The notes below the pieces were generated by a model that saw nothing but the letters and a program-made list of their open reading frames with translations, searched no databases and was not told the origin of the DNA. Shown one piece after another: positions 48,013 to 50,522 of a DNA stretch of 64,000 bases. Where the stretch lies: the NCBI RefSeq assembly GCF_014635345.1, contig NZ_BMCU01000001.1, positions 248,001 to 312,000 on the forward strand. The letters run 5' to 3'. The stretch's first letter is position 1. Each line of letters starts with the position of its first letter. The position numbers were made by a program, and so were the translations under genes. The stretch is from Rhodococcoides trifolii (GTDB lineage: Bacteria; Actinomycetota; Actinomycetes; Mycobacteriales; Mycobacteriaceae).

Positions 48013-48909
48013 TCAGTGGGTGATGCTGCGCAGTGTGAAGGTGCGCACCGGACCGGGGATGCTCGCGTCGCAGGTGGTCAGGATGGGCGTCGACCACCCC
48101 TGCTCGAGGGTGACGGTGACGTCGCTACCGCTGTCATGGGCCAGGACGATCGTCCACACATCGTGCTCGACGGACTCCGACAGCGGTGCGAGTGTGTCGA
48201 TTCTGTTGTCCTGCAGCATCAGTCGTGCGTGATGCTGGGCCGCCTGTACCGGGTTGGACAGCGAACTGCGTCCACGTACGAAGCGTGTGTCCACCGTCCC
48301 CTGCGTGTACTGCTGAAACAACGTGCTCGTGTCGGTCAGATCGGCACGGCCGAAGTAGAACCCGTGGGGGAACATCACCATCGTTGCCGCGAAGCGGTCC
48401 CCACCGAGGTGCGAGCACTCCCACATCTGCTCGGGATGCGTCGCGTCGAGTGCCTGCGCGGCTCGGCGGCCGTGGACGGCGCAACACTGATCGTGCCGCC
48501 CGTGCGTGCAGACCACCACGATCGGGTCCGTGGAGGGAGAACCGGTCGACCCGTCCAGCGGGACGTCGAGCAGTTCTCGGGGTGTGTCGACGCGGCCCCA
48601 CCGAATCGTTTCGTGGCCGGGCCGCGAGTCGACGAACGCCCACCGCCACACGTCCGGCTCTGCTCGCCGGCCGGTTCGGCGAATGGCCAAGGGCCGCATG
48701 CCTGCTCGTTCGATGCGGCGAACGATGTCTCTGCCCAGGCCCGAGTCGATCACGCCGGGCGAGTCGATGAACGCCGAATGGCCCCAGGATCCCGACAGCT
48801 CGATCAGGAACCACTGCAACCCGCGTGATCCGGTGCCTTCGAGATTGTCACCGCGTTCGAGTGCGCAGTCGCTGCAGGGTCGCCAGTTCGGATCCGAGCG
48901 TGGTGTCAT
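48013..48909 (-). CDS. Sucrase/ferredoxin-like (thioredoxin-fold [2Fe-2S]) protein
   Basis: This 298-residue protein of the Suc_Fer-like family has N-terminal PCSDCALERGDNLEGT, RWAFVDSRPGHETIRW, then VVVCTHGRHDQCCAVHGRRAAQ and WECSHLGGDRFAATMVMFPHGFYFGR. The CTHGRHDQCCAVHG block supplies cluster ligands of a thioredoxin-like ferredoxin. The ATG at 48909 overlaps the stop of the JmjC gene by 4 bp (48906-48909), so the two are coupled. It is a plausible electron donor to, or second modifying enzyme with, that oxygenase. The long extension to 49377 is antisense noise. Confidence 0.88.
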   Translation of the reverse strand: MTPRSDPNWRPCSDCALERGDNLEGTGSRGLQWFLIELSGSWGHSAFIDSPGVIDSGLGRDIVRRIERAGMRPLAIRRTGRRAEPDVWRWAFVDSRPGHETIRWGRVDTPRELLDVPLDGSTGSPSTDPIVVVCTHGRHDQCCAVHGRRAAQALDATHPEQMWECSHLGGDRFAATMVMFPHGFYFGRADLTDTSTLFQQYTQGTVDTRFVRGRSSLSNPVQAAQHHARLMLQDNRIDTLAPLSESVEHDVWTIVLAHDSGSDVTVTLEQGWSTPILTTCDASIPGPVRTFTLRSITH

Positions 48910-50150
48910 CTCTTCCGACCGGGCACGAGGATTCCCTCGCGCAGCAACCGCGTGACCACGACCTTCGAGTCGTCGGCGTCGAGACCGTCGAGTTCGCCTG
49001 CGCGGGCAGGTTTTCCCTCGTGCAACCGCCGCACGGCGGGAGCACAGACGAGAGGGAGGGTCACCGTCTTGCCGGGCAACACGACGGAGACACCTCCGGC
49101 ACCCTCGACGATTCGCGCGCTCGACCCGTGTCGCCAGATCACCTCGTCCGCGTCGGTCAGGCTTGCCATCGTCGCCACCGTACGGAGTGGGCGCACTGGC
49201 TCGGGGCGGGTGGTGTCGAGGAAACGCGAACGAATGCGTTCGGCGACCGCCTGCGGATCGGTGTCCACGGCGCCGAGTGCGTCGAGCGTGGAAAGGACGT
49301 GCGGTGCAACGGCATCGACGTCGGTGAGGTCGATGCCGAGCGGTAGCGGCGACCGCATGGCCGGGTCGTCGGCCCACGTCTTCAGCATCTGCAGTGCGAC
49401 GTCGTAACGCGTGAACGCGGCCATTCCCACGGTGAGATGTATGGACGTCTCGCCCAGCGCCGTGGCCGAGTGGATCCAGCCCTTCGGGATGTACAGCGAA
49501 TCACCTTCGCGCAGAACGACATCGAGGGTGGGTTCGGTGGCCGCCATACGTTCGACCGCGGACCGGTGGTCGGTCCAGGGCTGGTTCGACAGGGGATGCT
49601 CGTGAACCGGCGGATGTATCAGCCAGCGCTTCTCGCCACTGACCTGGAGTACGAACACGTCGTGCACGTCGTAATGGGGATCGAAACCACGCGACGACGA
49701 CGGTGTCACGTACGCGTTGATCTGTACCGGATGACCCACGTCGTCGACGAGGTCTCGGGAGAACCGAATCAGTGGGGGCCACAGTCGATGCAGACCCTGC
49801 AACACCATCGTGGCGCCGGCGGCGAACTCGGCCAACGCCTTCGCGGAATCGACCTGGTCGGGCATCTCCGCACCGAAACCACCGGACGCCGTGTAGGACT
49901 CACGCGGCAGAACCGAGCCCTCGTGCGCCATGCGCAGGAACGGTGTGCGCACACCACGCTCGGCGACGAGCTCGTCGACGGCATCGACGGACAGAAGGTC
50001 GGTGAACGGCGTGGGCAATTCGTCGGCGCGACTGAGCAGCGGTGCGCGGCCCCAGAATTCGTCGGCGAAGCGTTTCGTGTCGTGTGAGATGCAACGAGAA
50101 AGCGCGGACCGGTTCTCCGGCCCGCGCATCCCGTCACGCAGTGTGTTCAA
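48906..50150 (-). CDS. JmjC/RoxA-type Fe(II)/2-oxoglutarate oxygenase (cupin_4 family)
   Basis: This 414-residue oxygenase has the iron triad H159-Y-D161 in FDPHYDVHDVFVLQ and distal H227 in YIPKGWIHSATALG, with VQINAYVTPSSSRGF before it, matching ribosomal oxygenases RoxA/ycfD and human MINA. The C-terminal winged-helix-like region (residues 300-414) is also typical. Known members hydroxylate Arg or His of ribosomal proteins. Here the ATG at 50150 lies 11 bp after the stop of a three-repeat peptide gene rich in Asp, Asn and His. The context argues for that peptide as substrate. This is inference from linkage. Confidence 0.9.
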   Translation of the reverse strand: MNTLRDGMRGPENRSALSRCISHDTKRFADEFWGRAPLLSRADELPTPFTDLLSVDAVDELVAERGVRTPFLRMAHEGSVLPRESYTASGGFGAEMPDQVDSAKALAEFAAGATMVLQGLHRLWPPLIRFSRDLVDDVGHPVQINAYVTPSSSRGFDPHYDVHDVFVLQVSGEKRWLIHPPVHEHPLSNQPWTDHRSAVERMAATEPTLDVVLREGDSLYIPKGWIHSATALGETSIHLTVGMAAFTRYDVALQMLKTWADDPAMRSPLPLGIDLTDVDAVAPHVLSTLDALGAVDTDPQAVAERIRSRFLDTTRPEPVRPLRTVATMASLTDADEVIWRHGSSARIVEGAGGVSVVLPGKTVTLPLVCAPAVRRLHEGKPARAGELDGLDADDSKVVVTRLLREGILVPGRKR

Positions 50151-50161
50151 TGGACGCAGAA

Positions 50162-50413
50162 CTACGCGGTGCCGTCGGCTCCGCCGTCGTGGCCGTCCGG
50201 GTTCGAGCCGCCGTCGGCCGTGCCCTCGCCTGCGCTGCCGTCGGCTCCGCCGTCGTGGCCGTCCGGGTTCGAACCGCCGTCAGCGGTGCCCTCGCCGGGT
50301 GCTGCGCTGCCGTCGGCTCCACCGTCGTGTCCGCCGGGGTTGGATCCGCCGTCAGCGGGACCCTCGCCGCCTGCGGCTCCGGATGTGGTGATGTCGTCGT
50401 CGTTGATGCTCAT
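50162..50413 (-). CDS. Three-repeat Gly/Asp-rich small peptide, candidate multi-core RiPP-like precursor
   Basis: This 83-residue protein has a short leader MSINDDDITTSGAAG followed by three units, residues 16-39, 40-61 and 62-83, each built on GGSNP-x-GHDGGADG with x Gly or Asp. The unit starts GEGPADGG or GEGTADGG. The peptide has no membrane segment, cysteine, Lys or Arg, and His and Asn recur once per unit. An AGAGG ribosome-binding site lies 6 nt before the ATG at 50413. It is 11 bp upstream of the JmjC oxygenase. I know no named family for it. Alternatives: an intrinsically disordered Asp-rich protein that binds metal or is not modified. Confidence 0.75.
   Translation of the reverse strand: MSINDDDITTSGAAGGEGPADGGSNPGGHDGGADGSAAPGEGTADGGSNPDGHDGGADGSAGEGTADGGSNPDGHDGGADGTA
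50165..50368 (-). repeat. Three tandem coding repeats (72, 66 and 66 bp)
   Basis: Units at 50297-50368, 50231-50296 and 50165-50230 encode the near-identical 24-, 22- and 22-residue blocks of the peptide. The second and third differ by one residue (final SA against TA). The first has an extra AP and Gly for Asp at the variable site. Near-identity at the DNA level suggests recent unit duplication. Confidence 0.85.
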
Positions 50414-50522
50414 CGAATTCCTCTCGTTGCCATCCATACCTGGTCTACAGGCATGTCATCAGTGTTGACCGAGCGGGCTCCATTCAAACAGTGAACGGCA
50501 TAACTCACCACACCGACTCGGT

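Follow-up and report, generated by a model that had tools for sequence, protein, structure and literature searches.

The JmjC_2 (PF08007) enzymes NO66 and MINA53, both human, and YcfD/RoxA act on ribosomal proteins. In this study, an oxygenase gene of the same family was analyzed in a 64,000-nucleotide stretch of the Rhodococcoides trifolii genome (contig NZ_BMCU01000001.1, positions 248,001 to 312,000; hereafter the window, with positions counted from its first letter). In contrast to the described enzymes, a small repeat peptide is encoded directly upstream of the oxygenase, here and in nearly all close relatives, and a Suc_Fer-like (PF06999) protein is encoded downstream. The window's enzyme shares with NO66, MINA53 and YcfD the JmjC_2 fold over nearly its full length, including the C-terminal domain, and the GxxxHYD motif and the lysine of NO66 align with it.

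JmjC or cupin-like hydroxylases acting on a ribosomal precursor peptide have been described for biphenomycin, where BipG and PbsQ hydroxylate ornithine (PMC12257519, PMC12707348). The available parts of these accounts describe a many-enzyme cluster with an MNIO, a B12-radical SAM enzyme, an arginase and a protease, in which the target ornithine is made from arginine, and they contain neither a tandem Asp core nor a Suc_Fer partner. 3-Hydroxyaspartate in ribosomal peptides has been attributed to PesHI (nitrilobacillins) and SmaO (a graspetide cluster), and PesHI modifies Asp21 of its own peptide, according to the accessible portions of these reports (PMC13060819, PMC13097080). Neither of the two papers mentions JmjC or cupin. 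For the third protein, the closest described relatives are Apd1 and Aim32. According to the accessible sections of one source (PMC11138216), these yeast proteins share the motif C-X8-C-X24-75-H-X-G-G-H, in which one iron is bound by the two Cys and the other by the two His. The C-X8-C...H-X-G-G-x pattern and a thioredoxin-like ferredoxin fold are common to these proteins and to the window's partner, as far as the same sections and a second partial source go (PMC11138216, PMC8482512). The published motif ends in His (HXGGH), whereas Asp is the last residue in all JmjC-linked copies that we read (HxGGD).

Among the titles and abstract openings of listed open-licence papers, the scope of our search (subscription papers lay outside it), there was no account of this three-gene cassette. 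Core strings gave zero exact matches in open-licence papers, and no such paper named YxbC together with JmjC. The original prediction, made from the window's sequence, had proposed a candidate new class of hydroxylated ribosomal peptide. The label broadly fits, but a hydroxylase of JmjC type has been described before in one pathway for a ribosomally synthesized and post-translationally modified peptide (RiPP), that of biphenomycin, judging from the available parts of those accounts. There is a real chance that the cassette is a RiPP class of its own. We propose, with a probability of roughly 0.55, that the three genes form a RiPP-like, leader-guided cassette that makes poly-3-hydroxyaspartyl peptides, possibly serving as metal ligands.

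Organization of the locus

The three genes lie on the minus strand in the order peptide, oxygenase and Suc_Fer-like protein. The features and the evidence for them are as follows.

50162-50413, minus strand: repeat peptide gene, putative precursor, 83 aa (translation of the open reading frame (ORF), coding test, pairing count)
50369-50413, minus strand: leader, residues 1-15, MSINDDDITTSGAAG, with the DDDIxT motif (sequence, leader comparison)
50297-50368, minus strand: core unit 1, 24 aa, GEGPADGGSNPGGHDGGADGSAAP (translation, tandem-repeat detection)
50231-50296, minus strand: core unit 2, 22 aa, GEGTADGGSNPDGHDGGADGSA (translation, tandem-repeat detection)
50165-50230, minus strand: core unit 3, 22 aa, GEGTADGGSNPDGHDGGADGTA, followed by the stop TAG at 50162-50164 (translation, tandem-repeat detection)
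48906-50150, minus strand: JmjC_2 (PF08007) NO66-like 2-oxoglutarate oxygenase, 414 aa (Pfam, PDB profile, model, alignment)
48013-48909, minus strand: Suc_Fer-like (PF06999) protein with a thioredoxin-like ferredoxin domain (Pfam, motif, model)

An 11-bp gap separates the peptide stop from the TTG start of the oxygenase (50150), whose translation could alternatively begin at an in-frame ATG (50129). The oxygenase stop and the Suc_Fer-like start overlap by 4 bp (ATGA). The tandem array of the peptide scored 277 in Tandem Repeats Finder, and the peptide contains zero Arg and zero Cys. The original prediction had described the layout correctly, with its 83-aa peptide of three units, the 11-bp gap, the intact oxygenase and the 4-bp overlap with the Suc_Fer-like gene. 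Its statements that the peptide lacks Arg and that H159-x-D161...H227 is intact were also borne out, by the translation and by the residues of the window's oxygenase.

Pairing of the peptide and the oxygenase

The JmjC gene was present in 36 of the 37 genomes of the window's genus. Eighty named JmjC loci, the best 80 of 172, came from Rhodococcus, Mycobacterium, Gordonia, Dietzia, Williamsia, Microbacteriaceae and others. Combined with a partly overlapping set of 30 loci, they gave 110 related loci in which the same species sometimes occurs twice. The repeat motif lay in a reading frame adjoining or at the JmjC start in 110/110, and was partial in L056 and L095.

A strict test was applied to distinct loci whose JmjC gene scored at least 400 bits against the profile and was preceded by 60 bases or more of sequence. 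To pass, an ORF had to measure 25-260 aa, show set fractions of Asp, small residues and Arg, and stop at a narrowly defined distance from the JmjC start. At 142 of the 147 distinct close JmjC loci, which include related species and so are not independent, the acidic peptide ORF immediately upstream passed. In the control set, made up of 1603 other ORFs no shorter than 250 aa, there were 12 passes. Ten of the 12 control passes adjoin a JmjC gene and were re-met from overlapping frames; they comprise eight peptides of the same type, the doubtful L152 and a candidate of a different type in L185. The five misses carry the peptide when inspected by eye, and were due to a contig end (L040), unread bases (L056), a broken frame (L095) and Arg-containing variants (L163 and L166). 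In a phylum-wide search, the peptide query matched 10 of 396 genomes, and all ten also hold a JmjC relative at least 48% identical.

The peptide is therefore paired with the JmjC oxygenase, and this pair is the constant core of the cassette, because 7 of the 80 named loci have no Suc_Fer match and carry other ORFs downstream. A dedicated peptide substrate for a ROX-type oxygenase had been predicted, and the pairing counts among close relatives support it strongly. The check proposed with that prediction, a kept unit with varying copy number beside PF08007 genes across actinobacteria, came out in its favor. Homologues consistently without a peptide, the outcome it had named against itself, were the reverse of what was seen among close relatives.

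Coding status and copy number of the peptide

The coding status was examined in 30 distinct Rhodococcus-type sequences by the ratio of nonsynonymous to synonymous polymorphism (pN/pS). The ratio was 0.15 in the peptide frame, and 2.72 and 2.41 in the shifted frames, which indicates that the peptide frame evolves under purifying selection. Among 94 genes, the number of units was three in 81, two in 11 and one in two; at least four units occur in some loci outside these 94. His was found in 226 of 230 distinct canonical units. Both the 94 genes and the 230 units were preselected with patterns in which most positions are fixed, which accounts for part of their invariance, and the 230-unit pattern let H, A or Q stand at the His position.

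At E 0.1, the window's peptide had no match in NCBIfam or Pfam. Variant peptides scanned against families matched only below the cut-off: (ADGG)n matched Sdr/ClfB repeat adhesins at E 0.02-0.07, and two more matches were weak (E 0.09 and 0.36). A tblastn search of plasmids with the peptide, run with the low-complexity filter on, gave no match.

Properties of the JmjC oxygenase

The oxygenase matched PF08007 at E 5.6e-28 (97.5 bits against a cut-off of 22). In the PDB profile search, NO66 ranked first (E 3.8e-42), followed by MINA53, YcfD-type enzymes and YxbC of Bacillus subtilis. The fold is that of NO66, then of MINA53 and YcfD; in the predicted model (pLDDT 93.2), NO66 (4y4r) was matched with Z 28.9 over 389 residues at an rmsd of 5.5 A. 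The C-terminal domain of the model is of mixed strand-helix type.

H159, D161, H227 and K174 were invariant in 41 diverse aligned rows, and HxDxHDVF was present in 160/160 collected JmjC ORFs, duplicates included. From the alignment with NO66 and from the known roles of these residues in the family, H159, D161 and H227 are presumed metal ligands and K174 a presumed 2-oxoglutarate contact. Family knowledge thus suggests that the window's enzyme should be an active 2-oxoglutarate oxygenase. The relatives in public plasmid records are labelled only as 'cupin domain-containing protein'.

Leader, core and the likely modified residue

The leader motif DDDIxT was compared among 48 distinct leaders that had been chosen beforehand with a pattern. 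In distant relatives, quite different cores follow related motifs of the form L-[S/T]-x-[E/D/Q]-[D/E]-[I/V]. A kept leader motif in front of differing cores, the layout of RiPP precursors, thus recurs in these peptides.

Core residues were counted in 141 peptides, the core being the last 45 residues or the whole peptide if shorter; the doubtful L152 was dropped before the count. Asp was present in 141/141 cores with at least five per core, and only Asp, Gly and Ala were never missing. His was missing from 16 cores (17 with the first residue left out), Asn from 32, Thr from 24 and Ser from 6. Gly followed Asp in 894 of the 1125 Asp residues having a next residue. The cores of class genomes range from EGPADGGAAGTPGVHDGGADGG to plain ADGG repeats. 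A near-pure (GADG)n core, GGPV and then GADG repeats, was found in L234/L207 (G569), so that besides one Pro and one Val, Asp is the only residue there other than Gly and Ala.

The residue at the His position varied among relatives. Ala replaces it in the last unit of four Dietzia peptides, Gln replaces it in one middle unit of L079, and G250 and G638 have Gln in all units. L234, L235, L237 and L243 contain zero His in the last 45 residues, and G240 has Thr in place of Asn. In a JmjC tree of 67 proteins, rooted at the midpoint and with some weak forks, NPxGHDGGADG units belong to one clade, which unites the window with other Mycobacteriales and with Microbacteriaceae. A second clade, supposedly Streptomyces, has His before DGGADG too; its sister pair, G250 and G638, has Gln, and other neighbours have ADGG repeats without His. 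His is thus gained or lost inside the family while Asp is kept.

The original prediction had listed His, Asn or Asp of each unit as the hydroxylation site. His and Asn were rejected as the family-wide target, both being lost in relatives, and Asp is the sole listed candidate that fits the whole family. Asp is the likely target because it occurs in every core while His and Asn drop out; this comparison favors Asp as the common target, with His as a possible target in some clades.

The Suc_Fer-like partner

The third protein matched PF06999 at E 2.7e-16 (60.6 bits against a cut-off of 34.9), a family that also includes Apd1 and Aim32. Its model (pLDDT 94.4) has a thioredoxin-like ferredoxin domain at residues 128-214, which matched the [2Fe-2S] ferredoxin of Aquifex (1m2a) with Z 12.8 and an rmsd of 1.9 A over 87 residues. 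The motif in the window is C134-x8-C143-x23-H167-x-G-G-D171, which departs from the C-X8-C-X24-75-H-X-G-G-H of the Apd1/Aim32 type. Asp replaces the last motif His in 110/110 JmjC-linked Suc_Fer ORFs, duplicates included.

To compare linked with unlinked proteins, 118 class-wide genomes were taken, of which 70 had a match, and the 30 best-scoring loci were read, which is not a random draw. HxGGD was present in 11/11 JmjC-linked proteins and in 1/19 unlinked ones, and the other 18/19 unlinked proteins carry HxGGH (Fisher p 2e-7). The JmjC-linked partner thus bears a mark of its own. The unlinked exception (L229/L244) has no JmjC gene in the 10 kb read, and may either have lost its partner or put the variant site to another use.

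A Suc_Fer match was found in 86 of the 110 related loci. Cys2-His-Asp is probably the ligand set of a [2Fe-2S] cluster, as predicted from the motif. 2-Oxoglutarate oxygenases normally work without a ferredoxin. That the ferredoxin supports the reaction, as the original prediction held, is unproven, with the Suc_Fer match missing at 7/80 named loci; the partner itself looks specialised by its HxGGD.

Upstream element and gene neighbourhood

One further feature lies before the peptide gene.

50464-50489, minus strand: promoter-like element GTTT-N17-GTCAAC, starting 76 bases before the peptide start (putative function)

Of 86 distinct sequence windows taken upstream of the peptide genes, 40 carry the pattern GTTT-N17-[GT]CAA[CT], placed 60-116 bases ahead of the peptide start, and none of 392 background windows does. 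It was read off alignments of the same loci, so this count is post hoc. The spacing was 17 in 40/40, although 14-19 was allowed. The window has the GTCAAC form in common with rhodococci, and the GGCAAC form occurs in mycobacteria. The two boxes are reminiscent of promoters used by alternative sigma factors.

The trio is flanked by an MFS transporter gene before the peptide and a SIMPL-domain protein gene after it (Pfam). Within flanks of about 4 kb, every ORF beyond the trio was limited to at most 8 of 71 loci, and the largest recurring neighbour groups stay within single genera or near relatives. By this count, biphenomycin-type neighbours (MNIO and B12-radical SAM) do not recur beside the precursor above that level either; no profile search for them was made.

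Distant relatives and variant precursors

Seventeen distant JmjC loci from other families of the phylum (L153-L169, 33-40% identity) were compared. Most of their peptides keep a leader motif, typically one like MSDERNLSEDDIETV, and have Asp every 2-3 residues with few or no His and Asn.

Further small ORFs lie upstream of more distant JmjC genes. Several of these loci were taken as Streptomyces, as their peptides match those of the Streptomyces plasmids L172 and L173. In L194, L195, L197, L200, L201, L202 and L203 the small upstream ORF ends in PSDGGGTGRSDGND or a related string, and in L173 and L199 it ends in GGKSDMNDT; the JmjC genes of these nine loci scored 163-183 bits. An aldo/keto reductase gene follows the JmjC gene in L173. 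At L172:2269-2415 and in L184, the JmjC gene is preceded by a short ORF that combines a DEIEV leader with Asp-Pro repeats (DNDPSDP; DNDPxDP); the former is annotated as a hypothetical protein on a Streptomyces clavuligerus plasmid. L185 has two tandem candidate precursors before one JmjC gene, with the leaders LDPQDITVV and LDPSDIAIV and cores that contain DDNDSNDSGG and DDNDSDDSGG. L189, L190 and L191 have two adjacent JmjC genes each. A 28-residue peptide, MENVDFDDIEFIETAEELLATSYYKNIQ, precedes the first of them in L190 and L191, and a similar peptide occurs in L187. The Streptomyces-type short upstream ORFs are leads only.

L173 of Streptomyces goshikiensis (163 bits) was rejected as a member for its different upstream ORF of 43 aa. 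Two JmjC relatives on cyanobacterial plasmids were also rejected, since their upstream genes encode larger proteins and no such peptide.

Proposed pathway and alternative explanations

In the proposed pathway, the small gene would encode a precursor with a short N-terminal DDDIxT leader and a tandem Asp-Gly-rich core. The NO66-like oxygenase would bind the leader, perhaps through its C-terminal domain, and would hydroxylate the recurring core Asp at C3. Each unit of the resulting poly-3-hydroxyaspartyl peptide would carry several modified residues. The Suc_Fer-like protein, probably a [2Fe-2S] protein with Cys2-His-Asp ligands, would assist the pair as an electron donor or iron handler. The product would most likely be kept in the cell as a carboxylate/hydroxyl metal ligand and not exported as an antibiotic, because no dedicated peptidase or exporter recurs. 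C3-hydroxylation of Asp with a metal-binding product is the most economical proposal, because this enzyme branch hydroxylates protein side chains, no reactive residue other than Asp is constant, and 3-hydroxyaspartate serves as a metal ligand in siderophores and calcium-binding domains.

Several observations weigh against this proposal. Among enzymes whose targets are known, those nearest to the window's oxygenase hydroxylate His (NO66 and MINA53) or Arg (YcfD). His is present in 125 of the 141 cores, so His hydroxylation is possible in the window's clade, and the second clade, supposedly Streptomyces, also has His before DGGADG. Units in L163 resemble ADGTDQGVxGGTYGPRDA, most of them with Arg, and the target there may differ. 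Two C-terminal stretches of the oxygenase had no Pfam match to a leader-binding family, which leaves leader recognition conjectural. At L152 (G175), beside a close JmjC gene, the upstream ORF passes the strict test but is doubtful for lack of clear repeats. L186, one of two tandem JmjC genes on a long branch beside the family, is without such a peptide, and this peptide type is mostly absent beside JmjC genes scoring below 300 bits. No peptidase or exporter recurs in the 71 loci with flanks of about 4 kb, which is unusual for a RiPP although not strictly required of one. An adjoining Suc_Fer match was missing in 24 of the 110 loci, so this protein is not essential. Seventeen of the 24 came from the 30-locus set (1.5-kb flanks) and seven from the 80 named loci (about 3-4 kb downstream), and the count covers adjoining DNA only.

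The same cassette could act on the recurring His in the window's clade and on Asp in other clades. The closest fold and sequence are those of the histidyl hydroxylase NO66, and His occupies nearly all of the preselected canonical units and most cores. However, relatives (Dietzia, L079, G250, G638, L234, L235, L237 and L243) lose His and keep Asp, and we consider His hydroxylation unlikely. The peptide could also stay unmodified and accompany the oxygenase and the Suc_Fer-like protein as an acidic, disordered metal binder or scaffold, with the enzyme acting elsewhere. Such a role would suit the Asp-rich repeats and the lack of any recurring gene for a peptidase or exporter, as well as the iron that Suc_Fer and JmjC proteins are both expected to hold. 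A leader motif kept before very different cores is precursor-like, however, and the peptide-oxygenase pair persists without Suc_Fer, which makes an unmodified partner quite unlikely.

A role in the ribosome, with the small ORF merely regulating the oxygenase, for example as an upstream leader ORF, was also considered. NO66, MINA53 and YcfD are ribosomal oxygenases, and the window's genome has no second PF08007 gene. Relatives at E 1e-20 were found in only 58 of the 396 genomes of the phylum, a sporadic distribution for a ribosome modifier, and selection at the amino-acid level together with copy-number changes does not fit a regulatory upstream ORF. We regard this explanation as improbable. 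Accidental neighbours with an untranslated high-GC repeat ORF are hardly credible: GC-rich repeats can leave other frames open, as some are here, but the pairing (142/147 vs 12/1603) and the pN/pS of 0.15 in frame against more than 2 in the other two frames led us to reject a chance repeat ORF. The proposal of an Asp-hydroxylating cassette is thus retained. A wider version of it is put forward tentatively, at somewhat less than even odds: an undescribed peptide class occurring in many families of Actinomycetota, in which an NO66-type enzyme would convert tandem Asp-Gly cores into intracellular metal-binding poly-3-hydroxyaspartyl chains with a Cys2-His-Asp [2Fe-2S] partner, and of which the distant Streptomyces JmjC genes with Asp/Asn-rich precursors would be branches.

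Implications

If the proposal is true, a large group of JmjC genes would gain a substrate, and the NO66 branch would gain a minimal and readily expressed enzyme-substrate pair. It would also provide a gene-encoded route to polyhydroxyaspartate peptides and an unusual Asp-ligated [2Fe-2S] site, and would show how the ribosomal-oxygenase fold came to be recruited to peptide modification. The cassette is widespread in environmental mycobacteria, rhodococci and Microbacteriaceae, and therefore its physiological role is accessible in ordinary strains.

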